Assembly: GCA_903887775.1 (NCBI GenBank)
Contig: CAISRB010000011.1
Coordinates: 62,001-126,000 of the forward strand
Length of the DNA: 64,000 bases
Direction: 5' to 3'
Source: an uncultured Bacteroidales bacterium
GTDB taxonomy: Bacteria > Bacteroidota > Bacteroidia > Bacteroidales > FEN-979
Shown here: positions 24,201 through 62,219 of the stretch, one piece after another
How the letters are laid out: each line of letters starts with the position of its first letter
Numbering within the stretch: position 1 is the first letter of the stretch
Made by a program: the position numbers and the translations under genes
The notes under the pieces: model-generated
Seen by the model: the letters and a program-made list of their open reading frames with translations, nothing else
Database searches by the model: none
Told to the model about the DNA's origin: nothing

Positions 24201-25717
24201 GCTCAGTATCGGGGCATGCATCCATTAAAGGTACTTTGGATAAGCCCCGTATTTCGGGAGATCTGAGACTGAATCACACAGTGTTCAAAATTACTTACCT
24301 GAACGTGTTGTACTCACTGACGGATGTTGTTCGCATTGATTCCAATGCCTTTGTCTTTAACAAGATGGAGATATCCGATTCCCTGGGGAACAAGGGAACG
24401 CTGAACGGACGTATCAGCCATGATCACTTCAAAGATATACGGCTTGATCTGAATGTTGACCTGAACAACTTTTCGGCTTTCAACAACACCTATTCCCAGA
24501 ACTCCGTTTTTTATGGTAAAGCCAGGGGTACAGGCTCAGTTCATGTTTTTGGCCCACTTGACAACATCACTATTGCCGTCAAGGCACAGACCGGAAAAAA
24601 CACCAATGTAGCTATTCCTATAAACCTTACGGCAAGCGTTAGTCAGAATGACTTCATTAGATTCGTGAATAAAAATGATACAATATCATCAAAACAGAAA
24701 GCCCAAAAGGATCAGACCAACCTGACTCTCAACATAGCCCTGAAGGCAAATCCGGATGCCCTCGTGGAGGTTTTCCTGCCTGATCAACTGGGTAACCTGA
24801 AAGCCCAGGGCACTGGAAACATTGTCATGGGAATGACCCCGACAACACCATTCAGCATGAAGGGGACCTATTCTATCACGAAGGGATCATTCGTTTTCCA
24901 GATCAAGAACCTGTTAAGGCTGCCGATGAGTATCACTGAGGGGAGCAGGATCACCTGGTCGGGTGACCCTGCTGATGCAATTCTCAGTGTAAGTGCAATT
25001 TACCGTACGAAGACAACACTTGCAGGCCTTACTTCCTACGCCGAAGATGCACAGAGTCGCTTCCCGGTTGAAGTCATTTTCCATTTGGGCGGCAAGCTGC
25101 AAAACCCCGATATTAAATTCAGCATGAACCTTCCGGATGTGGAAGAAAACATCAAGGCACAGGTATACAGGTCAATCGACACCACCAATGTATCAGAAAT
25201 GAACCAGCAAATGATTTACCTCCTGGTCATGAACTCCTTTAAACCTGTAGTTTCTTCAACCGGGTCGACGATCAATGTAGGGGCAACATCGGCTTCACTG
25301 GTGACAAACCAGATCAACTCATGGCTTTCAGGAGCATCGAGGAATGTCAACGTGGGGGTCAACTACCGTCCCGCATCTTCCACCGATATTCAGTCATGGG
25401 ACGTTTCGATGTCGACCCAGCTGCTTAACGACAGGCTGCTGATCGACGGGACATTCGGGATGAACAACTACAAAGGCTCATACCAGCAGGCCAACCAGAT
25501 AGTGGGAGATATCAATATTGAATACCTGCTTACACAGAACAAGAGGTGGAGAGTGCGTGCCTTCAACCGCACCAACAATATGAACCTGCTGAATAACTAT
25601 GCGCCTTATACCCAGGGGGTAGGGATTAAATACCAGCGTGATTTCTATACTTTCGGTGAATTGTTTCACGGGAAAAAATGGGCTGAACAACAGGCTAAGA
25701 AAGCGAATAAAAAATAA
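21203..25717 (+). CDS. tamB: TamB-like translocation/assembly module protein (DUF490)
   Basis: Large inner-membrane-anchored periplasmic protein of the AsmA/TamB class, implicated in outer membrane protein insertion or phospholipid transport. About 1504 residues: one N-terminal membrane segment (ILVYTCVIILSIAFTLWSVV), an AsmA-like start (VRIQSFSLNPWDGLVINEISL), a long beta-rich repeat region, and the DUF490 C-terminal domain (GTGNIVMGMTP, GTYSITKGSFVFQIKNLL, ILSVSAIYRTKTTL, SFKPVVSSTG). No ATG exists in frame before the membrane segment; TTG at 21203 is the only usual start codon after the in-frame stop at 21182. Its stop overlaps the start of the next gene (TAATG), so the two are translationally linked. 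Confidence 0.88.
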   Translation: MSGSAPAKRYRIKCNKQSKSTIKTLIKILVYTCVIILSIAFTLWSVVRSPGVQTLGVRIVAAYFSKAWKTEVRIQSFSLNPWDGLVINEISLKDRKGDYLFKAKELSVRPGLVNLKKHRINLEKIFIDHGIVQLLTHKGDSSLNLQFIIDYFASKDTTRKTDTLKGPVWNITFSNIILHSTRFHLEDENTPREPVGMDYSNIDVNDINLHLTDLRFDADTIRTNILDLSATERCGFHVKRLSGEFHVSPGFLKANNLKVLTDYSDISLSFAFLYPSWSAYNDFLNAVRIKADIAPSYLNLEDIGFFAPDIRRMKDQFRFEGKIDGTVSNFRARDFRVAYGINTYFWGNIRAFGLPDVKETFVDVAVKTMTTNKKDIESFLLPGEGDSIVLPHMLANLGVLSFTGNFTGYYNDFVSNALFRTNLGNVRTDLVMHRIHDEYKLGYHGQLDVSGFNIGKLTDDTAYLGVTTFRGEISGKGLSSANADVEINIHVDSTKLLKYNYHKLDIRGLLFNKRFTGYLDVADTNLALGFSGTMNFSDSIPGFDFRSEIRHAHLFNLGFMHRDSIETISTTISANFTGKSLDNIDGKIGLENTNYVEGRKSIHMKNLLLDNDIDEKGNKSYHLKSDFVDADISGHFSFRQVVPSLYTFIKNYLASFYLKDSVKVEALVTSGQVLKCNVRFKNTEQLTNIFIPFLKVSDKSFIEGSYNEPKGLLSFRAGAPYLDVSGIFIPNWHLEAQTSTNELSLNTGSDEVYFKKAKKNDSIEIKLDTFSLISHIRHDSILYAFTWTDAGRLSGFDGFVSFLNNPKTEIKITNMGVLLNGREWTVDSKNYITIDTNLIDIRRLFFSGSDQFLQAEGKISGRPQDTLTLAFNKVDISSFDRLTGSTAIDLEGMLSGQVKLMNVYKGIRILSDLRLDQFKFNKELLGDAILNVNYIKADERFDVKSRIEFTGKAGKTVPFDLSGSLYAEKEPRLDFNLGLENLNLKMLQPFVSSFMSGVNGSVSGHASIKGTLDKPRISGDLRLNHTVFKITYLNVLYSLTDVVRIDSNAFVFNKMEISDSLGNKGTLNGRISHDHFKDIRLDLNVDLNNFSAFNNTYSQNSVFYGKARGTGSVHVFGPLDNITIAVKAQTGKNTNVAIPINLTASVSQNDFIRFVNKNDTISSKQKAQKDQTNLTLNIALKANPDALVEVFLPDQLGNLKAQGTGNIVMGMTPTTPFSMKGTYSITKGSFVFQIKNLLRLPMSITEGSRITWSGDPADAILSVSAIYRTKTTLAGLTSYAEDAQSRFPVEVIFHLGGKLQNPDIKFSMNLPDVEENIKAQVYRSIDTTNVSEMNQQMIYLLVMNSFKPVVSSTGSTINVGATSASLVTNQINSWLSGASRNVNVGVNYRPASSTDIQSWDVSMSTQLLNDRLLIDGTFGMNNYKGSYQQANQIVGDINIEYLLTQNKRWRVRAFNRTNNMNLLNNYAPYTQGVGIKYQRDFYTFGELFHGKKWAEQQAKKANKK

Positions 25718-28700
25718 TGTCGTTTACCGTATACAGAAGCTCGGCCGGATCAGGCAAGACCTATACGCTTGTAAGGGAATACCTGAATATTATTTTACGC
25801 GACACCGACAGCTTCAGGAATATCCTGGCGGTTACATTCACGAATAAAGCCGCGGGAGAAATGAAGCGAAGGCTACTTGGCTGTCTTGAGGAACTTTCGG
25901 GACCTCAGTCAGGAAAAGGCAAAGCAACCAGAACACTGCTTCCCTCACTTGTTGAAGATACGGGTCTGAGTGAAGCGGAGATCAGCCGGAACGCAGGGGA
26001 AGCGCTGAAGAAAATCCTTCACCGTTATTCTGATTTTGCGATAGGAACAATCGACAGCTTCTCGCACCGGATAATTCGCGCTTTTGCACATGATTTCGGA
26101 TTACCCGTGAATTTTAAAGTTGAACTGGATGCCGATGAACTTATAGAAACCACAGTCGACCTCCTTCTCGACAAAGCCGGGGATGATGAGCAACTGACCA
26201 CCCTGCTCGTGAATTTTCTTGAAAACAATCTTGAAAACGATAAAAGCTGGGCTATTGATAAATCCCTGATCGAATTCTCGAGGCTGCTGCTTGATGAAGA
26301 AAGCCAGGATCAGCTGCCGAAAATGCGCAGCCTGAGCATTGAAGACTTCAGGCTCGTGGCAAATTTCCTGAGAAAAAAGACAAAAGAGTTCGAGAATTCA
26401 TTGAAGGAGGAAGCAAGCCTGTCCTCAAAAGCTATTTGCGATGCAGGCCTTGAACACGATGCCTTTGCATACGGCAAGTCAGGGATTTCCTGGTATTTTG
26501 AACAGATTGCAGCCGGAAGGCTTGATAAACCGGTCCCGGGTTCCAGGGTGATTTCCACGGTTGAAAAAGACAGTTGGAGCAGCGGTAAAGCCACATCAGC
26601 CGACAAAGAAAAGATTGAGAATTTAAAACCCCTGCTTCTTGACAGTTTTCAGAGGATACAGACACTGATCGGAACATCTTTCGCCGGGTATAAGCTGTAT
26701 AAAATTCTTATTAAATCAGTCTATCCTCTCGCTGTGCTTAGCAGCATCGACCGCATACTGCAGGATTTTAAGAAGCAGAACAACCTTATTCATATTTCCG
26801 AATTCAACAGCCGTATAGCGAAAATTGTACTGGGTGAGCCCGTACCTTTTATCTACGAACGGATAGGTGAGAAATACCGTCACATTCTTATCGATGAGTT
26901 CCAGGATACTTCGGCCCTGCAATGGCAGAATTTCGTCCCTCTTATCGAAAACTCACTGGCATCGGGTTATTTCAACCTCGTAGTGGGTGACGGCAAGCAG
27001 GCGATATACCGATGGAGGAACGGGGATGTAGAGCAGTTCACAAACCTTCCTGCTCTGAAGGGCAGCGAAATTAACCTCTTGCTCAGGGAAAGACAGGAGT
27101 CCCTTGACAGGAATTTTACTGAGCTGTCGCTGGATAAAAATTTCCGTTCAGGCCAGGAGATCGTAAATTTTAACAATGGTTTTTTCGGCTTTGTAAGCGG
27201 TTTTCTTGATGAACCCCGTAAAAAAGTTTACCGGCAATTATTTCAGCATGCCGATCTTGCGAAAGAAGGAGGATATATAAATATTTCCTTTACCGGTAAA
27301 GGAGAGGATGAGGAACCTGTTCAGGAAGTGATGCTTCAAAAAGTTCACGGGATTATTGCTGGATGCCGTAATGAGGGTTACGGCTTTAAAGACATTGCCA
27401 TACTATGCCGGGCGAACAGGGAAGCCTCGATGGTTGCTCAGATGCTGATCGAAAACAGCATTCCGGTCGTTTCGGGTGAATCGCTGCTGCTGAATTACTC
27501 TCCCCTGGTAAGAATGCTGACAGGCCTGGTAAGATACATCTTTGGCCCTATAAACCCCGTGATCGAGGCAGAGACTCTGAACCATTATTCAGAATTGTTC
27601 CCTGGCAAGAAGCCTTTTTACAAATCATGGCTGAATATGGATCAGGAGAAAAGAACGAAAACATTCGGGACTTTTCTCACTGAAAACTTAGGGGAAGAAG
27701 GTGTCGATCCATTGAAAACACTGCCTGTTTACGATCTTTTTATCAGGCTTGTAAGCAGCTTCTGCCCCTTAAAAGCCTCTGACCCGTATATCCAGTTTTT
27801 ACTGAATGCAGTCCACAAATTCAGTACCGACAATTCCTCTTCCGCACCGGATTTTATTGAATGGTGGGATGAACACTATGAAAAACTTTCAGTGGTCATG
27901 CCTTCGGGTTATGATGCGGTGCAGATAATGACAATACATAAAGCCAAGGGCCTCCAGTTTCCTGTTGTTATCTATCCTTTTGCAGGCGACAAACTGAAAA
28001 ATTCGAAAAAGTACCTCTGGGCCGATCTGGATCACAATGAAGTGCCCGGTCTGAACACTGCATTGCTTGCTTCTGAAAGTGATATTAAAGAAACGATTTT
28101 TGCAGAGAAATATGTGGAAGAACGTCAGAAATCCTTGCTCGACCTTATCAACCTTCTTTATGTTGTCATGACAAGGCCTGAGAAACAGTTATATCTTCTT
28201 CCCCCGTTTCCTCCCGTAAAAACCGGTGAACCTTCATCAGTGCCGGCTTTTATTAAATTGTGGCTACAGCATAAGGAACTATGGGATGATGACCGTTTTG
28301 ATTATGACTTTGGATTTCGACCTCAACCAAAACCCGGAATTGCTGAAGAATTAAATATCATGCCAATACCCGGGCTCAGGTATGCCAACTGGAGGGAAAA
28401 GATCAGGATACGTTCGCGGGCTCCCGAGATATGGAACCTTGACGATCCTGATAAAAACCGCCGTTTTGGAAATGTGCTTCATGCAATTTTGGCGGGCATT
28501 ACTCCCTTCAATAACGCAGATGCCATGATCCGGATCGTGCTGGATAACGGCATGCTTGACGGGGCCCTGGAAGATGAAGTCCGCAGTAAGATCCATAAAA
28601 TTATTAGTGATCCTGATCTTGCTTTTATTTTTGATGAAAAAGCCGATGTAAGACCTGAAGCGGAGATTCTGACTCCGGAAGGTCATACTTTGCGTCCCGA

Positions 28701-28884
28701 CCGGGTGATCATCAGGGGCGGGCAGGCCGTGGTTGTTGATTATAAAACCGGCCGCCCAATGGAGAAGTATAAGAATCAGCTGCTCAAATATGCTGAATAT
28801 CTTGAAGCCATGGGATATAAAGATGTGAAAAAATATTTGTTATACCTTGAGCCGGAAGTGAGGCTCGAGGAGGTGAAAGGATGA
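25717..28884 (+). CDS. addA: AddA-like UvrD-type helicase/nuclease
   Basis: Helicase-nuclease subunit for processing double-strand DNA ends before RecA loading. The 1055-residue protein has Walker A in YRSSAGSGKTYTLV, motif Ia VTFTNKAAGEM, GTIDSFSHRIIRAFA, Walker B ILIDEFQDTS, GDGKQAIYRWRNGD, motif V/VI MTIHKAKGLQFPVV and LLYVVMTRPEKQLYLL, and a C-terminal PD-(D/E)XK nuclease (FGNVLHAIL, RPDRVIIRGGQAVVVDYKTG). This is the AddA arrangement. The AddB-like partner lies 2.4 kb downstream, separated by two cell-wall-recycling type genes. The ATG overlaps the tamB stop by one base. Confidence 0.88.
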   Translation: MSFTVYRSSAGSGKTYTLVREYLNIILRDTDSFRNILAVTFTNKAAGEMKRRLLGCLEELSGPQSGKGKATRTLLPSLVEDTGLSEAEISRNAGEALKKILHRYSDFAIGTIDSFSHRIIRAFAHDFGLPVNFKVELDADELIETTVDLLLDKAGDDEQLTTLLVNFLENNLENDKSWAIDKSLIEFSRLLLDEESQDQLPKMRSLSIEDFRLVANFLRKKTKEFENSLKEEASLSSKAICDAGLEHDAFAYGKSGISWYFEQIAAGRLDKPVPGSRVISTVEKDSWSSGKATSADKEKIENLKPLLLDSFQRIQTLIGTSFAGYKLYKILIKSVYPLAVLSSIDRILQDFKKQNNLIHISEFNSRIAKIVLGEPVPFIYERIGEKYRHILIDEFQDTSALQWQNFVPLIENSLASGYFNLVVGDGKQAIYRWRNGDVEQFTNLPALKGSEINLLLRERQESLDRNFTELSLDKNFRSGQEIVNFNNGFFGFVSGFLDEPRKKVYRQLFQHADLAKEGGYINISFTGKGEDEEPVQEVMLQKVHGIIAGCRNEGYGFKDIAILCRANREASMVAQMLIENSIPVVSGESLLLNYSPLVRMLTGLVRYIFGPINPVIEAETLNHYSELFPGKKPFYKSWLNMDQEKRTKTFGTFLTENLGEEGVDPLKTLPVYDLFIRLVSSFCPLKASDPYIQFLLNAVHKFSTDNSSSAPDFIEWWDEHYEKLSVVMPSGYDAVQIMTIHKAKGLQFPVVIYPFAGDKLKNSKKYLWADLDHNEVPGLNTALLASESDIKETIFAEKYVEERQKSLLDLINLLYVVMTRPEKQLYLLPPFPPVKTGEPSSVPAFIKLWLQHKELWDDDRFDYDFGFRPQPKPGIAEELNIMPIPGLRYANWREKIRIRSRAPEIWNLDDPDKNRRFGNVLHAILAGITPFNNADAMIRIVLDNGMLDGALEDEVRSKIHKIISDPDLAFIFDEKADVRPEAEILTPEGHTLRPDRVIIRGGQAVVVDYKTGRPMEKYKNQLLKYAEYLEAMGYKDVKKYLLYLEPEVRLEEVKG

Positions 28885-28962
28885 ATGTGAATATCGAATA
28901 TCGAATGTCGAATGTCGAATGTCATTCTGCGAAGCCGAATTGCGAAGCAATCACGAATACCC
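28885..28962 (+). repeat. TCGAATG-type tandem repeat and a GCGAAGCAATC-type repeat remnant
   Basis: Right after the addA stop codon, a 7-base unit (ATATCGA/ATGTCGA) is repeated about five times (28890-28923). It runs into a stretch reading GTCATTCTGCGAAG ... ATTGCGAAGCAATC, which contains the small palindrome ATTGC-GAA-GCAAT and resembles the GTCATTGCGAGC...GAAGCAATC intergenic repeat that I recall from many bacterial genomes. Confidence 0.6.
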
Positions 28963-29081: not shown

Positions 29082-30515
29082 ATGAACATAGAGGATAAAT
29101 TAACGACACTATACTGCGGCTTTAGCGGAAGCAAAGCACTGCGGATTGAAAAGATCGCCGGATCGGGATCCTACAGGCAGTATTTCAGGATCACCGGGCC
29201 TGGGGGAAGCTTAGTGGCAGCATACAATGCAGATGTGCGTGAAAACACCGCGTTTCTTGAATTTACAAAGCACTTCAAATCGATGGATCTTCCTGTACCA
29301 AGGATTTTATATACCGGCCCTGATAATGACGTCTACTTCCTCGAAGACCTGGGTGATACCACCCTTTTTTCATCCCTGATGAAATTACGTGGGAGAGAGA
29401 AGGAGTTGCACCCTGATATCGTTGACCAGTACATGAAGGTCGTGGAGTTTTTACCGCAATTCCAGGTTGTTGCCGGAGACAAAATCCCGTTTGAATTCTG
29501 CTACCCTAGGCCGGCTTTCGACAGGCAAAGTATGATGTGGGACCTGAACTATTTCAAGTATTATTTCCTTAAGCTGGCCCGTGTCTCCTTTGATGAACAA
29601 AAGCTTGAAGAAGATTTCAATGACTTTGCTGATTTCCTGCTCGAAGTACCGGGGGAACACTTCATGTACCGTGATTTCCAGTCAAGGAACATCATGATAC
29701 TTAATCATTCTCCCTGGTTCATTGATTACCAGGGCGGCCGTAAGGGAGCGCTTCAGTATGACCTGGCTTCGCTTCTTTACGATGCCAAAGCTGACCTGCC
29801 TGAAGATTTCAGGGATCAGCTCCTGAACCGGTACATCAAGTCCGCCGCTGAATCTGCATCGTTTGATGAAGGTTTATTCCGCAGGTATTTTGATGGATTC
29901 GTACTGATCAGGATATTGCAGGCCATGGGGGCATATGGTTTCCGGGGGTACTATGAGAATAAACCATTGTTCCTCCAAAGTATTCCGTATGCCGTGAAGA
30001 ACCTTAAAACGCTGCTTGAAAGAGCAAACATCCCTGTTAAGCTGCCCATGCTGTGGAAATCCCTCGGGGATATCATCGGGAATCCTGCCTTTTCAAGCGT
30101 GAAACCGGCTTCCGTTGAGCTCACGATTAAAATATTCAGTTTTTCATATAAGAAAGGACTGCCTGCTGATGAAAGCGGAAACGGAGGCGGCTTTGTATTC
30201 GACTGCCGTGCACTTCCTAACCCGGGAAGATATCCTGAATATGCCGGTATTACCGGAAGAGATAAAGCAGTCATCGATTTTCTTAAAAAAGAACCGGAAG
30301 TGGATGTTTTTTTGAATCATGTTTTCAGCCTGGTCAGCCAGAGTGCAGGAAACTATATTGAAAGGGGATTTTCAAGCCTGATGATCAGTTTTGGTTGCAC
30401 CGGGGGCCAGCACCGCTCGGTGTATTGTGCGGAGGAGCTTGCAAAATACCTGGTTGAAAAATTTAACGTTAAGGTGAAATTGTACCATACGAATATAAAA
30501 GAAGTAAATGATTAA
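29082..30515 (+). CDS. AmgK-like amino-sugar kinase fused to a RapZ C-terminal domain
   Basis: Two-domain protein of 477 residues. Residues 1 to about 335 form an aminoglycoside-phosphotransferase-like kinase related to AmgK (N-acetylmuramate/N-acetylglucosamine anomeric kinase): GSGSYRQYFRI as the ATP loop, FMYRDFQSRNIMIL as the catalytic loop with Asp and Asn, and WFIDYQGG as the metal-binding Asp motif. Residues about 345-477 match the C-terminal domain of RapZ: FSFSYKKGLP, FVFDCRALPNPGR, GCTGGQHRSVYCAEEL. The N-terminal P-loop domain of RapZ is absent. In E. coli RapZ this domain binds GlcN6P and the GlmZ/GlmY RNAs. The MurU-like gene follows after 58 bases, giving a plausible MurNAc salvage pair. 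Kinase substrate is inferred. Confidence 0.85.
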   Translation: MNIEDKLTTLYCGFSGSKALRIEKIAGSGSYRQYFRITGPGGSLVAAYNADVRENTAFLEFTKHFKSMDLPVPRILYTGPDNDVYFLEDLGDTTLFSSLMKLRGREKELHPDIVDQYMKVVEFLPQFQVVAGDKIPFEFCYPRPAFDRQSMMWDLNYFKYYFLKLARVSFDEQKLEEDFNDFADFLLEVPGEHFMYRDFQSRNIMILNHSPWFIDYQGGRKGALQYDLASLLYDAKADLPEDFRDQLLNRYIKSAAESASFDEGLFRRYFDGFVLIRILQAMGAYGFRGYYENKPLFLQSIPYAVKNLKTLLERANIPVKLPMLWKSLGDIIGNPAFSSVKPASVELTIKIFSFSYKKGLPADESGNGGGFVFDCRALPNPGRYPEYAGITGRDKAVIDFLKKEPEVDVFLNHVFSLVSQSAGNYIERGFSSLMISFGCTGGQHRSVYCAEELAKYLVEKFNVKVKLYHTNIKEVND

Positions 30516-30573
30516 CCTTACCTGACTGGTTACTATTGACCATCGCCGGTAACCGTTCATTAAAAGAAGTGGC

Positions 30574-31272
30574 ATGAAAGCAATGATTCTTGCAGCGGGA
30601 TTAGGGACACGGCTCAGGCCGATCACCGATACCATCCCAAAAGCCCTCGTGGAGATCAACGGGAAAACCCTGCTTGAACACTCCATCGACCACCTGAAAC
30701 TTTTCGGTGTTAAAGAAATCATTGTCAACGTGCACCATTTTCCAGATCAGATCATCAGTTTTCTGAAAAAGAAGAAAAATTTCGGTCTTGCAATTGAGGT
30801 TTCGGATGAACGGGATCAGCTGCTTGATACCGGCGGCGGATTTAAAAAAGCCTCCCCGTTCTTTGAAGGAGGAGAGCCTTTTGTCATCAGGAACGTGGAT
30901 GTTCTTTCAAACATGGACCTGGGAGCGATGCTCAGCTTCCATAAGAAACATAAACCCGTTGCAACGCTGGCCGTCAGGAACCGTGAGACCTCCCGCTATA
31001 TGTTATTCAATGAGCGATGGGAACTTATTGGCTGGACAAACGTCAGTACCGGGGAAAAGAAACTGAGCAGGAAAGAATACAAACGCATGTACCCCCTGGC
31101 TTTTTCGGGCATCCAGGTTCTTGATCCTTCCATTATTCCTCTGATCACTGAAGAAGGCCGGTTTTCTCTTATTGCCATGTATCTCAGGCTGTGCAGGGAA
31201 AATCGCATCTGTGCCTATACCGACAATGATTCTTTTTGGTTCGACGCAGGGAAAAGAGAGGAAAACAGCTGA
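30574..31272 (+). CDS. sugar-phosphate nucleotidyltransferase, MurU-like
   Basis: Transfers a nucleotide to a sugar 1-phosphate; beside an AmgK-like kinase the best guess is MurNAc-1-P uridylyltransferase. The 232-residue protein opens with the pyrophosphorylase signature MILAAGLGTRLRPIT and TIPKALVEINGKTLLEHSI, then LLDTGGGFKKA, FVIRNVDVLSNMDL and FSGIQVLDPSII. There is no left-handed beta-helix, so it is not GlmU, and its size fits MurU. An alternative reading is a mannose- or glucose-1-phosphate nucleotidyltransferase. Its stop overlaps the AddB-like start (TGATG). Confidence 0.85.
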   Translation: MKAMILAAGLGTRLRPITDTIPKALVEINGKTLLEHSIDHLKLFGVKEIIVNVHHFPDQIISFLKKKKNFGLAIEVSDERDQLLDTGGGFKKASPFFEGGEPFVIRNVDVLSNMDLGAMLSFHKKHKPVATLAVRNRETSRYMLFNERWELIGWTNVSTGEKKLSRKEYKRMYPLAFSGIQVLDPSIIPLITEEGRFSLIAMYLRLCRENRICAYTDNDSFWFDAGKREENS

Positions 31273-34136
31273 TGGATGCATTCCTGGAGCAAACGGCGGC
31301 TCACCTGATCTCAACATATGGCGATGAGGTTTCACAACTTTGCATTGTGATGCCAAACCTCCGGGCGGGTCTGTTTCTCAGGAAGTTCCTGGCTGAACGC
31401 CTGAAAAAAACAATCTGGGCTCCAACCATATGCTCCACCGATGACTTTGTTACCCTGATCGCCGGCTTACGGCCGGTTGAACCTCTTCAGATACTCTTTA
31501 AGCTATACGGGATCCATAGGGATGCAGAGCAGGAGAGAGCCCAGCCTTTTGAAGACTTTATTCAATGGGCGCCTCAGTTGCTGAATGATTTTAATGAGGT
31601 TGACTCGTATCTGGCCGATGCACGCCAGCTGTTTTCAGCCCTGACCGACACAAGAGCCATATCGGTTTGGAACTCTGAAAACCGTCCCCTGACCGAGTTC
31701 GAAAAACAATATCTCAGGTTCTACAGTTCCTTGTATGTTTATTACAGCAGGCTGGTTGATGACCTGCTTGAACATAAACAGGCTTATCCCGGACTGATGT
31801 GCCGCATGGCAAGCCTGGGAATAGAGAAGTTCAGTGAAAGATTGCCCTGGAAAAAAGTGGTTTTTGCCGGATTTAATGCACTCACAGCTTCAGAGGAAAA
31901 GATCATGGATTCACTGAATAAGTCGGGAAAAGCTGAATTTCTTTGGGATGCTGATACCTATTATTTGAATGATCCCGGGCATGAAGCGGGGGAGTTTCTT
32001 CGCCATAACCGGAAAAAATGGGGAGGGAAAGAGTTTAACTGGGTTTCTTCAGGAATTGCCGGAGTACCCAAAAAAATTACTATTACCGCTGTGCCGAATA
32101 ATATTACCCAGGCGGGGATGGCCGGTGAACTGGTAAAAACAATCAATACCTGTGATGAGCATACAGCCCTTGTCCTGATGGATGAAAAACTTCTCATCCC
32201 ATTGCTGTATTCCCTGCCTGCCGGGGCAGGGGAGATGAACATTACGATGGGGCTTCCGCTTTCACAAACTCCCCTGCACGATCTTCTCGAGCTGGTCTTC
32301 AGGATGCAGATGAACAGGGAAAAATTCAGCGCCAACCGAAGGAAGGGCGAAAAACTCTTTTATTTCAGGGATGTACTTGCGTTATTGCGTCATCCTTATA
32401 TCTCCGGCATGGCCGCAGGGATCATGGAGGGCAATTCTTTCGTGTTCGACAGTATGCTTCAATCCATAGCCGGGGGGAGTAAGGTGTTCATTTCATCCGA
32501 AGAAATCCTGAACCCGGGCACAGGTCTGTTCTCGGCCGATGCAGATTTTCTCAAACCATTATTCGGAAACTGGCAGTTACCTGAAGATGCGGTCAATGCC
32601 CTTAAAGACATCATAGGATCTTTCAGGGACAACCTTACAAAGGACAAGGAATCACTGGAACTTGAATATTTATACGCGTTCTCAAAGATTGTTTACCAGG
32701 TTGACCAGCTTCTTAAGACGCATCCCGGAATGATAACAACGATACAAACCTTGTCGCGTCTTTTTGTTCAAATGGTACAGGCCGTTACTCTTCCATTCTT
32801 CGGCGAACCCCTGAAAGGGATGCAGATCATGGGGATGCTTGAAACCAGGGGGCTCGATTTCGAAACGGTTATCATGCTTTCCTGCAACGAGACACTGCTT
32901 CCAAGGGGACGATCAGACAATTCCTTTATTCCTCTTGACCTGAAACTTGAATTCGGGCTTCCTTCATACAGGCAGAAGGATGCCGTTTATGCCTATCATT
33001 TTTACCGGCTGCTTCAGAGAGCCGGGAACGTGAGGCTGATATACAATTCAGAACCGGGTGAATTCGGGGGAGGGGAGATGAGCCGCTTTCTGCAACAGAT
33101 TCTCAGTGAGCTGAAACGCGCAAACCCATCCGCAGACATAAAAGAAGAACTTCTTGTTCTGTCGCCTTCATCTTCGAGCCGGTCGGACAAGATCAGAATA
33201 GAAAAAGACAGCGTTATTACGGACCTTCTGAAAGCAAAGGCAGAAAAAGGATTCTCCCCGACTTCCCTGAATAATTTCAGGGCTTGCCCGCTGAAGTTCT
33301 ATTTCAGCGACATTGCAGGGCTGCAGGAACCCGAGGAACTCGAAGAAGAGATTGATGGCCGCATTCTTGGGAATATTGTACATGATGCCTTGCACAGGCT
33401 TTACAAAAAACATATTGGCCAAAAGCTTGATGAGGGTCAGGTAAGCATTATGAAAGCCAGGATTGATGAAGTTATCGATGAAGCATGCAATAAGGAATTT
33501 CATGGCAGGGATGTGAATTACGGGAGAAACCTTCTGCTGGTAAGGGTTGCAAAAATGATGCTGAAGAGATTCCTCGGTTCGGAGCTTAAAGCCATCACTG
33601 ATCTGAAAGAAAATGGAGAAACAATAACTATTGTCGGGCTTGAGCAATGGCTTGAACGCAGGCTGGATCTGACTTTGACCGGTTCGGTGTTAAACATTAA
33701 GATCAAAGGTTTAGCCGATCGTATCGACAATACAGGAAAATGCCTGAGGATCATTGATTATAAAACCGGATCTTCTGACAACAAAAGAACAAAGGTTGAT
33801 AATTGGGAGGAGTTTGCCCTGGACCCCTCCACTGATCATGCTTTCCAGTTGCTTACATACAGCTGGATGTATTCTCCGAGAATGAAATCAGAAATCCCTG
33901 TAAAGGCCGGGATATTATCACTTAAAAAATTGAATGAAGGGCTGATGACGGTTTCCGTTCCCTCAGTCGAAGAGAAAAAAGGCAATGACATTTTAACGGC
34001 CGAAGACCTCAATCAGTTTGAAACCAGCCTGCGGCAGGTTCTGAATGCCATCTTTGATACAACGGCAGGCTTCACTCAAACCAGCGATCCCAGGGTTTGT
34101 GCAAAATGCAGGTTCATAAATATATGCGGAAGATAA
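31272..34136 (+). CDS. addB: AddB-like PD-(D/E)XK nuclease
   Basis: Probable second subunit of the AddAB-type helicase-nuclease. I start at the ATG at 31272, which overlaps the upstream stop, giving 954 residues (the frame is open from 31236). The N-terminal half is a degenerate helicase fold (LCIVMPNLRAGLFLRKFLAE) with no Walker A, and the middle has ETRGLDFETVIMLSCNETLLP, the AddB/RecC-like core. The C-terminal nuclease has FSPTSLNNFRACPLKFYF, GNIVHDALH, IKGLADRID and LRIIDYKTGS, followed by CAKCRFINIC; the cysteines in FRACP and the final cluster are placed like the 4Fe-4S ligands of AddB. Confidence 0.85.
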   Translation: MDAFLEQTAAHLISTYGDEVSQLCIVMPNLRAGLFLRKFLAERLKKTIWAPTICSTDDFVTLIAGLRPVEPLQILFKLYGIHRDAEQERAQPFEDFIQWAPQLLNDFNEVDSYLADARQLFSALTDTRAISVWNSENRPLTEFEKQYLRFYSSLYVYYSRLVDDLLEHKQAYPGLMCRMASLGIEKFSERLPWKKVVFAGFNALTASEEKIMDSLNKSGKAEFLWDADTYYLNDPGHEAGEFLRHNRKKWGGKEFNWVSSGIAGVPKKITITAVPNNITQAGMAGELVKTINTCDEHTALVLMDEKLLIPLLYSLPAGAGEMNITMGLPLSQTPLHDLLELVFRMQMNREKFSANRRKGEKLFYFRDVLALLRHPYISGMAAGIMEGNSFVFDSMLQSIAGGSKVFISSEEILNPGTGLFSADADFLKPLFGNWQLPEDAVNALKDIIGSFRDNLTKDKESLELEYLYAFSKIVYQVDQLLKTHPGMITTIQTLSRLFVQMVQAVTLPFFGEPLKGMQIMGMLETRGLDFETVIMLSCNETLLPRGRSDNSFIPLDLKLEFGLPSYRQKDAVYAYHFYRLLQRAGNVRLIYNSEPGEFGGGEMSRFLQQILSELKRANPSADIKEELLVLSPSSSSRSDKIRIEKDSVITDLLKAKAEKGFSPTSLNNFRACPLKFYFSDIAGLQEPEELEEEIDGRILGNIVHDALHRLYKKHIGQKLDEGQVSIMKARIDEVIDEACNKEFHGRDVNYGRNLLLVRVAKMMLKRFLGSELKAITDLKENGETITIVGLEQWLERRLDLTLTGSVLNIKIKGLADRIDNTGKCLRIIDYKTGSSDNKRTKVDNWEEFALDPSTDHAFQLLTYSWMYSPRMKSEIPVKAGILSLKKLNEGLMTVSVPSVEEKKGNDILTAEDLNQFETSLRQVLNAIFDTTAGFTQTSDPRVCAKCRFINICGR

Positions 34137-35760: not shown

Positions 35761-37263
35761 TTATTCCCCGAACACGCATGCCTCATAGGTATATAGTTCG
35801 GCATCCTTCCATCCGTCCCAGCCTAATCCTGCCTTGTCGCGGGCGCAATGGCCGAGGAATTCGTCCTTGCTCCATCCTGTTTCGGTCGCCACCTGGGGAA
35901 GGAATGTACCCGAATAATATCCTTTTTTGATATATATCCCGTGTTTGCCCAGTACGATCTCATCCGCAGAATAAATCCTTTTCATTGGAGACAATACGGA
36001 TATTTCAATTTCCAGCTTGTCAATCTCTTTCGCCGTAACAGGCATAAACCTTGAATCCTGGGTGGAAGATGCTATAGCCATCTCCTGGATCACTTTCCAG
36101 AGGGGGATGTCGGCTGTGAACCGGCCGATGCAACCCCTCAGTTCGCCTTTTTCCTTAAGTGTGACAAAGGCTCCCGAATGCATTTTCAAACCGGGGCTGA
36201 AATTTTTATCATCCACCTCGGGGGTTTTATGCTGGTTGATATACATGATGATCGTGGCACGGGCAATACCCAGCAGGGTTTTCTGCTCCTCTTTCGTAAA
36301 GCTGAACCCTGGTGCAGGGGTTGATGCTGATGCCCCGTTCCGGGTTATGCCAATAGACCAGTAGCCTACACACTGTGAATGATCACCGTACTTCGAATCC
36401 CCTGAATTCATATATTGCACCGGAGTATATTTGATGCCTGCATCCCCGGCTGTCATATATAAAAGCGTAAGGACGGAAGTCCAGCCGCAAAGGTTAGTCA
36501 CCAGGTTCGGGATGTTTTTCTTTTCGTATCCCTCGATGACTTTCATCAGGGCATCGGGATTGTTCGTGATGATGGCATCGCAGGTGGCTTTATCGGTGGA
36601 TTTTGCATCGTTATAAGGCGGATAATGCGAGAAGTCGGAACTGATAACAAAGAGATTGTTCCCGTTAAAATAAGGCTTCAGGGCCTGGGCAATCCGTTTG
36701 CAGGTCTGCGTGCTTTGGCTGCCAATCACGATAGGGACGATCTTAAACGGTTTTTTTAAATGATATTGAAGGAATGGCACCTGTACTTCGAGGCTGTGTT
36801 CATTAAGATCCGCATCGTAAACATAGCTGAAAACAGGATTGGATTTTATAAGCTCATTGGCAAGGGTGATGTTCACAGCTACTTTGCCAAGGGGGGTAAC
36901 GTAATCACCTTTGTTATAAATGGAAGCGCCCATAAATGATGCCTGGTGGCTTGAGCCAATGATAAACACATTATCATAAACTTTATCGGGATCTGCCTGG
37001 TTAATCCCGCTGGCAGCCACTGTACCTGAGAATACATAGCCTGCGTGCGGACAGATCACAGCCTGCAGGTTCCTGGATGTACCGGCTTTCGCGTTCCGGA
37101 ATAGCTCTGAAAGCTGAGCCCGGAGCGAATCAGGGTTTGCCGGGTAAAATTTTCCGGCTGCATATGGTTTGCGATCGGTTTTTGGCCCCTCCTGGGAGGA
37201 ACCGCCGTTATTGAATGTGAGTGTGAGTCCCATAATTAGTATGAATCGGAAAAAACTGCCCAT
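35761..37263 (-). CDS. amrB: AmmeMemoRadiSam B-A fusion (Memo + AMMECR1), predicted exported
   Basis: A fusion of the two soluble parts of the AmmeMemoRadiSam system, function unknown. After a hydrophobic N-terminus (FFRFILIMGLTLTFNNGGSSQ) comes the Memo domain at about 33-310 (KPYAAGKFYPAN, HSLEVQVPFLQYH). The residues that hold iron in human MEMO1, as I recall them, are all present: His73 (CPHAGY), His106 (GSSHQ), Asp210 and His213 (SSDFSHY), Cys259 (LCGWTS). The AMMECR1 domain follows at about 322-500 with its invariant LRGCIG at 375-380. The signal-peptide-like start is odd, since Memo and AMMECR1 are cytosolic in eukaryotes. It diverges, with a 43-base gap, from the membrane protein/radical SAM gene pair. 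Confidence 0.9.
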   Translation of the reverse strand: MGSFFRFILIMGLTLTFNNGGSSQEGPKTDRKPYAAGKFYPANPDSLRAQLSELFRNAKAGTSRNLQAVICPHAGYVFSGTVAASGINQADPDKVYDNVFIIGSSHQASFMGASIYNKGDYVTPLGKVAVNITLANELIKSNPVFSYVYDADLNEHSLEVQVPFLQYHLKKPFKIVPIVIGSQSTQTCKRIAQALKPYFNGNNLFVISSDFSHYPPYNDAKSTDKATCDAIITNNPDALMKVIEGYEKKNIPNLVTNLCGWTSVLTLLYMTAGDAGIKYTPVQYMNSGDSKYGDHSQCVGYWSIGITRNGASASTPAPGFSFTKEEQKTLLGIARATIIMYINQHKTPEVDDKNFSPGLKMHSGAFVTLKEKGELRGCIGRFTADIPLWKVIQEMAIASSTQDSRFMPVTAKEIDKLEIEISVLSPMKRIYSADEIVLGKHGIYIKKGYYSGTFLPQVATETGWSKDEFLGHCARDKAGLGWDGWKDAELYTYEACVFGE

Positions 37264-60266: not shown

Positions 60267-62219
60267 ATGAATAACAAGAATACGATCATCGGGCTCGGCC
60301 TCATCTTCGCAATTTTTATCGGGTATACATACCTGTTGAGCCCATCTAAGGAACAACTTATCGCCCAGAAGCGTAAAGCAGATTCTATGTACATGATTAA
60401 TGTACAGAAGCAGCACTCAATGATCACATCCATTGCAAGGGAAAAGGCTATTGCCGTTTCAAAGGAAAAAGAGAAATTCGCTGCCCGTGGTGAAAAAGTT
60501 GACTCGGTAACTCTGGTCAGGATGACGATGAAAGGCGAACTTGGTGTATTCGCCAATGCAGCAGTGGGGAAGGACACATCTTATACCATTGAAAATGATG
60601 TCTTTAAACTTAATTTTCTCTCCAGGGGAGGGAAGATCGGCCGTGTTGAGCTGAAGAACTACCTTACCTGGAATAAGAAGCCGTTAGTTCTGATGGACAG
60701 CGATTCGCTGAATTTCGGCATCTCGTTTTTCTCCAACAACCGGACCATAAGCACCAACCATTTATATTTTCAGCCTTTCTGGCACGATCCTTTACACAAG
60801 GGACAGACTTCAATGAAAGTCAGCGGGAAAGATTCACTGCAGTTCGGCATGAGGTTATATACTGCCTCAGGCGATACCGGCTTCAATAAGGATCAGTACA
60901 TCGAATTCCTTTACACTATTAAAGGGGATGACTATATGCTTCGCTTCCGGGTGAATATTGAAGGTATGGATCAGGCCATTGATGCAGGAAATAAATTCCT
61001 CGTCCTGACCTGGAGCGAGAATCTGAAAAACCTCGAGAAAAGTCTTAAAATGGAGCGTATGACCAGTACGCTTTACTATAAATACGATCAGGAAAAGGTC
61101 GATTATATAACTGAAACGAAGGATGAAGAACGCTATCTGAAAAATGAGAAGATCAAATGGTTCTCGTTCAAACAACAGTTTTTCAGCAGCATTCTGATAG
61201 CCGACAACTATTTTACCGAACCAAGGCTCAGGACCCAGACACTTCCGGGGCCTCCGGGCTACCTTAAGACCATGTTGGTCGAAACAGGAATTCCATATTC
61301 CGGGAAAGAGACCAAGTCGTTGGGCATGTCTATGTATTTTGGTCCGGATAAATTTTACACGCTAAAGCATTACAATTTAGACCTCGAAAAACAGATCCCG
61401 CTTGGATGGAGCTTTTTCCTGATGGCATGGATCAACATATACGCTGTTATCCCGGTCTTTACTTTCTTCGGGAACCTGGGGTGGAATTATGGCATCATCA
61501 TCCTTGTGCTGACCATTTTACTGAAGATCGTCCTTTTTCCGATAGCTTATAAAACATACAAATCATCAGCAAAGATGAGAGTCCTGAAGCCGGATATCGA
61601 TGAACTGAATAAAAAGTTTTCGAAAAAGGACGATGCCATGAAAAAGCAACAGGCGACGATGGACCTCTATAAGAAGGCAGGGGTCAACCCGATGGCAGGT
61701 TGTATCCCGATGCTGCTGCAGTTCCCTATCCTTATTGCGATGTTCCGCTTTTTTCCTTCATCCATTGAGCTCAGGCAGCAGTCTTTTCTTTGGGCTACAG
61801 ATCTTTCATCATATGATTCAATATGGACCTTCCCTGCTGGTTTCAGCATACCCTGGTATGGTAACCATGTCAGCCTTTTCGCTCTTCTGATGACCATCTC
61901 GAGTATTATCTATACCAGGATTAACGACCAGATGATGGGCAGCACCCAGCAGCAGATGCCAGGCATGAAAACAATGATGTATATGATGCCGGTGATGTTC
62001 CTGTTCTGGTTTAATGATTATTCTTCCGGGCTAAGCTATTATTATCTTCTTGCAAACCTTCTCACGTTTGCCCAGATCTACCTGATCCGTGCCTTTATGG
62101 ACGAGAAAAAACTTCATGCCCAGATCGAAGCCAACAAGAAAAAACCTGTGAAAAAATCAGGGTTCCAGAAAAGGCTGGAAGATATGGCAAAACAGCGCGG
62201 GATGCCAGCGAAGAGGTAG
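60267..62219 (+). CDS. yidC: membrane protein insertase YidC
   Basis: Inserts and folds inner membrane proteins, alone or with SecYEG. The 650-residue protein has the Gram-negative form: an N-terminal membrane segment (IIGLGLIFAIFIGYTYLLSP), a large periplasmic beta-sandwich domain at about 95-360 (NDVFKLNFLSRGGKIGRVELKNYL-like motif near 110-135), then the five-helix core from about 390 (NLGWNYGIIILVLTILLKIVLFPI, KAGVNPMAGCIPMLLQFPILIAMFRF, YMMPVMFLFWFNDYSSGLSYYYLLANLL) and a basic C-terminal tail (KKKPVKKSGFQKRLEDMAK). All expected parts are present at normal length. Confidence 0.97.
   Translation: MNNKNTIIGLGLIFAIFIGYTYLLSPSKEQLIAQKRKADSMYMINVQKQHSMITSIAREKAIAVSKEKEKFAARGEKVDSVTLVRMTMKGELGVFANAAVGKDTSYTIENDVFKLNFLSRGGKIGRVELKNYLTWNKKPLVLMDSDSLNFGISFFSNNRTISTNHLYFQPFWHDPLHKGQTSMKVSGKDSLQFGMRLYTASGDTGFNKDQYIEFLYTIKGDDYMLRFRVNIEGMDQAIDAGNKFLVLTWSENLKNLEKSLKMERMTSTLYYKYDQEKVDYITETKDEERYLKNEKIKWFSFKQQFFSSILIADNYFTEPRLRTQTLPGPPGYLKTMLVETGIPYSGKETKSLGMSMYFGPDKFYTLKHYNLDLEKQIPLGWSFFLMAWINIYAVIPVFTFFGNLGWNYGIIILVLTILLKIVLFPIAYKTYKSSAKMRVLKPDIDELNKKFSKKDDAMKKQQATMDLYKKAGVNPMAGCIPMLLQFPILIAMFRFFPSSIELRQQSFLWATDLSSYDSIWTFPAGFSIPWYGNHVSLFALLMTISSIIYTRINDQMMGSTQQQMPGMKTMMYMMPVMFLFWFNDYSSGLSYYYLLANLLTFAQIYLIRAFMDEKKLHAQIEANKKKPVKKSGFQKRLEDMAKQRGMPAKR

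Follow-up and report, generated by a model that had tools for sequence, protein, structure and literature searches.

What does the C-terminal domain of RapZ do at the end of an amino-sugar kinase? The question is raised by a 64,000-nucleotide stretch of DNA from an uncultured Bacteroidales bacterium (positions 62,001 to 126,000 of contig CAISRB010000011.1, assembly GCA_903887775.1, which comprises 3.83 Mb in 33 contigs and is 98% complete), hereafter the window, in which a kinase of the AmgK type and the RapZ C-terminal domain (RapZ_C) share one reading frame next to a gene for a MurU-like nucleotidyltransferase. A first-pass annotation had proposed this fusion, noted that RapZ's own P-loop domain is missing, and suggested that RapZ_C may control the kinase directly by sensing an amino-sugar phosphate, within a branch of N-acetylmuramic acid (MurNAc) salvage. 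Here, we found that the architecture is widespread and not peculiar to the window's genome, and that the module very probably serves MurNAc salvage or recycling. Our favored explanation for RapZ_C, which we hold tentatively, is that it processes MurNAc-6-phosphate (MurNAc-6-P), most likely as a phosphatase that feeds the fused kinase.

Pfam, NCBIfam and phmmer all confirmed the fusion, and NCBIfam its MurU-like neighbor (Table 1). Pfam matched an APH domain (PF01636, 47.2 bits with a cut-off of 23.2) followed by RapZ_C (PF22740, 119.5 bits with a cut-off of 27), and no HAD (haloacid dehalogenase) domain was matched in the protein. Two AmgK models were the only NCBIfam kinase families matched by the kinase part, with scores (67 and 47 bits) that fall far short of the equivalog cut-offs of 550 and 500. 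The whole-protein RapZ model (NCBIfam, cut-off 244) scored 106.9 bits over profile positions 156-275 only, and no P-loop N-terminal domain was matched by Pfam or NCBIfam, which bears out its reported absence and rules out a RapZ-like protein with a P-loop domain of its own. Phmmer gave the fusion an E of 7e-17 with E. coli RapZ (5o5s) and of 3e-13 with the APH-fold protein 3csv. The APH domain has a catalytic Asp/Asn loop, and since this loop and the metal-site Asp (R197, D198, N203 and D215) are invariant in all 78 aligned fusions, the kinase is expected from its sequence to be active. The AlphaFold2 model of the fusion, built from an alignment of 78 sequences, had a mean pLDDT of 90 and a pTM of 0.71, and Foldseek placed 3csv first (E 1e-12) and also listed RapZ. 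When the RapZ_C tail was modeled alone (pLDDT 93, 61 sequences), it superposed on the C-terminal domain of E. coli RapZ (5o5s) with Z 20.1 and a root mean square deviation of 1.6 Å over 123 residues at 39% identity, and the rows other than RapZ, phosphofructokinase included, had Z of 7.0 or less.

The partner protein is a minimal sugar nucleotidyltransferase for which MurU is the best curated family. Two MurU models came out on top among 42 NCBIfam families, at 131 and 130 bits, which is below the MurU equivalog cut-offs of 370 and 250. Five of the six other PF00483 proteins of the genome were scanned, and none had MurU as its top family. Of the 76 related loci with enough flank, 58 have a homologue of this gene no more than 1.5 kb downstream of the fusion and in the same orientation, a count from which L066 is missing because its MurU-like gene was dropped by the open reading frame filter; 9 of the 18 loci counted as lacking the gene are titled Prolixibacteraceae. 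In addition, AmgK was the top curated family for five of six other kinases scanned (the kinase of G180 matched no family), and MurU was the top family for all four other partner enzymes scanned.

Relatives were encoded in 352 stretches of the contig scan, of which the 80 best went into the locus counts. Both domains lie in one frame in all 80 kept loci, which are titled Bacteroidetes, Bacteroidales or Prolixibacteraceae, Neomarinimicrobiota, Calditrichota, Ignavibacteriales and KSB1. We also drew 296 Bacteroidota genomes (the phylum draw) and 247 genomes at the level of the class (the class draw, which overlaps the phylum draw). RapZ_C occurs in 36 of the 296, as part of frames of 477-524 amino acids in 27 and in short frames of 134-155 amino acids in nine. 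With 80 of 80 kept loci in one frame and 27 phylum-draw genomes with long frames, the fusion is not an assembly artefact. In seven of the nine genomes with a separate RapZ_C gene, six of them from family f5 and the seventh G031, the genes form a row of kinase, RapZ_C and MurU-like gene; in the other two (G180 and G271) RapZ_C is unlinked, and a kinase of the same kind lies elsewhere in the genome. The kinase is present in all 36 RapZ_C genomes, the unlinked cases included. The existence of split and unlinked forms suggests that RapZ_C works with this kinase and does not need a covalent link to it. The module is old, and it is conserved both in Bacteroidota and in further FCB phyla, at times as three adjacent genes.

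The architecture is a new form of the AmgK-MurU pathway known from Pseudomonas. There, MurNAc-6-P is formed by AnmK and loses its 6-phosphate to the HAD hydrolase MupP, after which AmgK converts the product to MurNAc alpha-1-phosphate and MurU makes UDP-MurNAc; MurQ is described as absent (PMC5371407). MurNAc-6-P is reported to build up in E. coli K-12 when murQ is deleted (PMC5371407). A MupP homologue with 32.6% identity, CCNA_02390, is reported for Caulobacter (PMC13046382), and the AmgK-MurU route is also named for Tannerella forsythia, a member of the Bacteroidia (PMC7670621, PMC13046382). The window's locus is like these systems in having an APH-type kinase beside a MurU-type nucleotidyltransferase, and its genome is like Pseudomonas in having AnmK and no MurQ: the MurQ model gave only a generic SIS-type match (E 2.5e-9) and none at E <= 1e-20. 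Unlike the kinases of those systems, the window's kinase carries RapZ_C, and both window proteins score far below the equivalog cut-offs.

In order to relate RapZ_C to these genes, AnmK was scored by PF03702 and MurQ by TIGR00274, a model that at E <= 0.001 matches every genome, generic SIS domains included. In the phylum draw, a genome was scored as having MurQ when E was < 1e-50 and as lacking it when E was > 1e-12, and no relevant genome fell between; a threshold of E <= 1e-20 was used for the class draw and for 29 named fusion genomes, which were chosen across groups from the 80 loci (G314 among them appears to be G216 of the draw). In the phylum draw, RapZ_C was present in all 13 genomes with AnmK and without MurQ, which belong to seven family codes, compared to 13 of the 194 genomes with both genes, one of which (G216) was counted on a weak AnmK fragment (Fisher 7e-14, uncorrected for kinship, which is addressed by family-level and within-family contrasts only). 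In the class draw, the figures were 12 of 16 versus 5 of 218, and nine of the 13 AnmK-positive, MurQ-negative genomes new in this draw had RapZ_C; the MurQ-negative status of G501 and G514 was taken from their absence among the positive rows. The same contrast was seen within families: in f98, G404 and G490 lack MurQ and have RapZ_C while G376, G473 and G508 show the reverse; in f78, G455 lacks MurQ and has RapZ_C while six genomes with MurQ are without it; and in f56, G325 and G418 lack MurQ and have RapZ_C, G393 has MurQ only, and G483 has both. Among the 29 named genomes, 23 had AnmK and 21 matched MurQ; five had AnmK and no MurQ match, including the window's four closest relatives among those tested. 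Taken together, these results show that the module tends to occur where MurQ is missing, without excluding MurQ.

The kinase also occurs without RapZ_C. At E <= 1e-12, 100 genomes of the phylum draw had the kinase; RapZ_C was present in all 26 that also had AnmK but in only 10 of the 74 that lacked it. The 64 genomes with the kinase and without RapZ_C are G009 and 63 members of a single family, f18 (which we guess may be Chlorobiaceae), so that they represent few independent events. All 64 lack AnmK, which for most f18 genomes was taken from absence among the positive rows. In f18, the kinase-nucleotidyltransferase pair lies with a NamZ-type exo-muramidase in 21 of 22 loci (19 of 20, plus both of two others). 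Of the 20, 18 also hold a sodium:solute symporter; where either gene is missing, the gap falls at a contig end, and NamZ was confirmed by Pfam in two loci and by similarity to these two in the rest. Since NamZ supplies free MurNAc, this context speaks for MurNAc being what the homologous pair acts on, and it fits with RapZ_C being dispensable where MurNAc arrives unphosphorylated. Together with the linkage to the MurU-like gene, the f18 pair gives the MurNAc salvage proposed in the first-pass annotation good support. The f18 cluster of kinase, nucleotidyltransferase, NamZ and SSF-type transporter (L143, L144, L162-L181) may itself be a set for MurNAc uptake and salvage. The nucleotidyltransferase of L143, the only one of f18 scanned, has an extra hexapeptide tail.

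We then aligned 87 sequences, 78 fused and nine separate, with the pocket of E. coli RapZ, whose numbering is used here; YvcJ was not part of this alignment. The loop C247-T248-G249-G250-x-H252-R253-S254, a phosphatase-type CX5R(S) loop, was kept in 87 of 87, as were S166, D176, D182, R184, N188 and H276. Four of the five residues of the sulphate/malonate pocket (H190, T248, G249, H252 and R253) were invariant, and the fifth, H190, was Gly in all 87 (G382 in the window's protein). Among the fusions, R238 was Phe in 78 of 78 and K251 was Gln in 72; position K170 was K or R in all 78, and more than half were basic at R196 (45 K and 7 R) and at R211 (42 K). The C-terminal basic RNA-binding cluster of E. 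coli RapZ, which we take to comprise K270, K281, R282 and K283, was unconserved. In E. coli, the pocket of RapZ holds sulphate or malonate, and its strand-CX5R(S)-helix loop binds sulphate (PMC5737377). Khan and Görke likened this pocket to the loop found in tyrosine phosphatases of the Cys-dependent type and proposed hydrolysis of glucosamine-6-phosphate (GlcN6P) (PMC7199280), so the phosphatase-loop idea for RapZ is already published; its application to the MurNAc-6-P step and the distribution of the module are new here. Furthermore, the C247S variant is reported to be inactive, and a crystal of the C-terminal domain with GlcN6P is reported to show density of a likely transformed product (PMC9841335). 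In the open-access literature, we found no published link between RapZ and AmgK or between RapZ and a Bacteroidetes kinase.

From the observed domains, gene order, conservation, predicted fold and gene distribution, we infer the substrates, the direction of the pathway and the phosphatase chemistry as follows. AnmK of the window's genome would supply MurNAc-6-P from anhydro-MurNAc. Without MurQ to split this compound, RapZ_C would most likely handle it, and would probably remove the 6-phosphate in a Cys-dependent reaction through its CX5R loop, thereby taking the part that MupP plays in Pseudomonas. A phosphate would next be added at C1 by the fused kinase, leaving the MurU-like enzyme to form UDP-MurNAc. 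We prefer processing of MurNAc-6-P because RapZ_C is biased towards genomes with AnmK and without MurQ, because the CX5R(S) loop and the polar pocket are invariant, because kinase-bearing genomes with AnmK all have RapZ_C while f18 genomes with NamZ and no AnmK do not, and because of the published hints for E. coli RapZ (PMC7199280, PMC9841335). A bolder form of this proposal, which we consider possible though rather doubtful, is that RapZ_C is in essence a Cys-dependent phosphatase for amino-sugar 6-phosphates, that in Bacteroidota and relatives the fusion is a phosphatase-kinase converting MurNAc-6-P to MurNAc-1-P in place of MupP and AmgK, with the phosphorylated position shifting from C6 to C1, and that the RNA-binding RapZ of E. 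coli later put an old enzyme pocket to a new use.

Several observations weigh against the phosphatase proposal. Four of the 16 class-draw genomes with AnmK and without MurQ lack RapZ_C (G500, G501, G380 and G494); G500 and G501 may be assembly gaps since their congeners have MurQ, but G380 and G494 stand. MurQ is kept in eight of nine RapZ_C genomes of family f4 and in all three of f19, in 18 of the 21 named genomes titled Neomarinimicrobiota, Calditrichota/Calditrichia, KSB1 or Ignavibacteriales, and in seven of the 19 RapZ_C genomes that the phylum draw contains from classes other than the window's, and 18 of the 29 named genomes have both AnmK and MurQ. AnmK is missing in 16 of the 52 distinct RapZ_C genomes of the two draws, 11 of which also lack MurQ, so MurNAc-6-P need not be present. 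For 15 of these 16, loci with wider flanks were inspected: the fusion adjoins a MurU-like gene in all 15, no AnmK gene lies near it in any of them, and a NamZ-like gene is near it in one (L191). These genomes thus offer RapZ_C no evident MurNAc-6-P. The distribution links the whole module, and not RapZ_C alone, to MurQ loss, and by itself it cannot decide between a phosphatase and a sensor on the same module.

The search for MupP was a weak test. With model NF009696 (cut-off 359, found through E. coli Gph), no protein exceeded the cut-off in the 15 genomes scanned of the 22 in the two draws with AnmK and RapZ_C and without MurQ (best 101 bits), which sets them apart from Pseudomonas; but none of the 14 control genomes exceeded it either, and because one of these was a Caulobacter, the absence of MupP is weak evidence. 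Weak HAD matches occurred in 12 of the 15, and a divergent HAD-type MupP is possible in these genomes. RapZ_C would resemble MupP in the proposed reaction and its place in the pathway, and differs from it in not being a HAD hydrolase (PMC5371407). With the Cys-dependent phosphatases, that is, protein tyrosine phosphatases (PTPs) and low-molecular-weight PTPs (LMW-PTPs), RapZ_C shares the strand-CX5R(S)-helix loop, a likeness already noted for RapZ (PMC7199280). The structural searches gave a PTP relationship no support: no PTP, LMW-PTP or rhodanese fold was among 50 rows of the 193 Foldseek matches or among 50 rows of the 691 VIA-align matches (Z >= 2), although absence from these rows excludes nothing, and a profile search of solved sequences with RapZ_C gave no match but RapZ at E <= 10.

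The closest competitor is that RapZ_C is a non-catalytic sensor that turns the kinase on or off upon binding GlcN6P, MurNAc-6-P or a similar sugar phosphate. This is possible, as the earlier annotation had supposed, and we regard it as a serious contender. The C-terminal domain of E. coli RapZ binds GlcN6P and acts as a sensor (PMC7073468), and UDP-GlcNAc is a ligand of B. subtilis YvcJ; since the K22A variant of YvcJ fails to bind it, the site may be outside this domain (PMC7525490). In addition, the fusion occurs without AnmK and alongside MurQ, where the need for a phosphatase is not obvious. Against a sensor stand the separate RapZ_C genes of 133-139 amino acids, which lie beside the kinase gene in seven genomes and far from it in two; an invariant Cys and Arg in the CX5R(S) loop would seem to exceed what simple binding needs; and sensing itself leaves the link with MurQ loss unexplained. 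Since the distribution and the invariant loop fit MurNAc-6-P processing at least as well as sensing, we give slightly more weight to a phosphatase or other processing role.

Another explanation is that the kinase and the nucleotidyltransferase serve a different sugar, for example GlcNAc on the way to UDP-GlcNAc, another amino sugar or a hexose, with no MurNAc recycling. The low AmgK and MurU scores are consistent with this, as are the best solved phmmer match of the nucleotidyltransferase, a mannose-1-phosphate guanylyltransferase (83 bits versus 64.5 for the chain named MurU), and the near score of another nucleotidyltransferase of the same genome on a MurU model (L131, 119 bits versus 130 for the window's protein). 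However, AmgK and MurU are the top curated families for the window's pair and for nearly all other kinases and all other partners scanned, the f18 homologues sit with NamZ, and the module tracks MurQ loss, which together make a different sugar improbable. A small-RNA-binding or RNase-adaptor role as in Enterobacteriaceae is very unlikely: the positive charge kept at K170, R184, R196 and R211, which contact RNA in E. coli, speaks for it, but R238, K251 and the basic C-terminal cluster known from E. coli RapZ (PMC9841335) are not conserved, H190 is Gly although H190A abolishes GlmZ processing in E. coli (PMC9841335), the RNA-binding part of RapZ is described as confined to Enterobacteriaceae (PMC7073468), and a single tRNA was the only RNA family found by Rfam in the window, to which the RNA search was limited, so that we reject this role.

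RapZ_C of the fusion is thus like E. coli RapZ in its fold, its CX5R loop and its polar pocket, and unlike it in that an APH kinase takes the place of the P-loop domain, H190 is Gly and the basic RNA-binding tail is missing. The proposal assigns the RapZ pocket to one particular step of a pathway, predicts its substrate, and suggests how Bacteroidota that have AnmK and lack MurQ deal with MurNAc-6-P. The separate RapZ_C gene of f5 (about 135 amino acids) offers a small, RNA-free system for the published suspicion that RapZ hydrolyzes its ligand. If RapZ_C is only a sensor, the fusion would be a case of direct control of an enzyme by a RapZ domain.

Table 1. Positions in the window of the fusion gene, its parts and the adjacent genes.
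Feature	Position	Strand	Evidence
Fusion gene, AmgK-type APH kinase and RapZ_C, 477 aa (amino acids)	29082..30515	+	Pfam, NCBIfam, phmmer, model
Kinase domain, residues 1-335	29082..30086	+	PF01636 at residues 22-252; top Foldseek match 3csv
Kinase catalytic loop YRDFQSRN, residues 196-203	29667..29690	+	R197, D198, R202, N203 invariant in 78/78 aligned fusions
Candidate metal-binding Asp D215 (IDYQGG)	29724..29726	+	Invariant in 78/78; putative role from the APH family
RapZ_C domain, residues 347-472	30120..30497	+	PF22740; model match to 5o5s
Pocket segment DCRALPNPGR, residues 374-383	30201..30230	+	Equivalents of D182, R184, N188 and Gly at H190 invariant in 87/87
CX5R(S) loop CTGGQHRS, residues 439-446	30396..30419	+	C, T, G, G, H, R, S invariant in 78/78 fusions and 9/9 separate genes
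MurU-like nucleotidyltransferase, 232 aa	30574..31272	+	Best NCBIfam match MurU, 131 bits
AddA-like helicase/nuclease gene	25717-28884		UvrD/PDDEXK domains in the flanking pair (Pfam)
AddB-like nuclease gene	31236-34136		UvrD/PDDEXK domains in the flanking pair (Pfam)

A wider conserved operon was ruled out, since besides the MurU-like gene (58 of all 80 loci) no neighbor occurs in more than 20 of the 80. The two that reach 20 also flank the window's pair; Pfam found UvrD and PDDEXK domains in them, and we take them to be AddA-like and AddB-like genes. Six copies of the 7-base repeat GAATGTC, at positions 28883-28923, lie between the AddA-like and the fusion gene. In G017 (L139:6541-7798), no MurU-like gene is present in the 12 kb inspected around the fusion, and the neighbors are a histidine-phosphatase-family gene and a metallophosphoesterase gene. 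The unlinked RapZ_C genes of G180 and G271 (L118:6435-6836 and L119:6083-6493) have as neighbors a gene for a secreted endonuclease I-like protein and one for an MFS transporter, and in G277 of f5 a LOG/lysine-decarboxylase-like gene (L113:7603-8352) follows the three-gene row. Elsewhere in the window, positions 35761-37263 encode a 500-amino-acid protein that by eye appears to be a fusion of a Memo-type and an AMMECR1-type domain.

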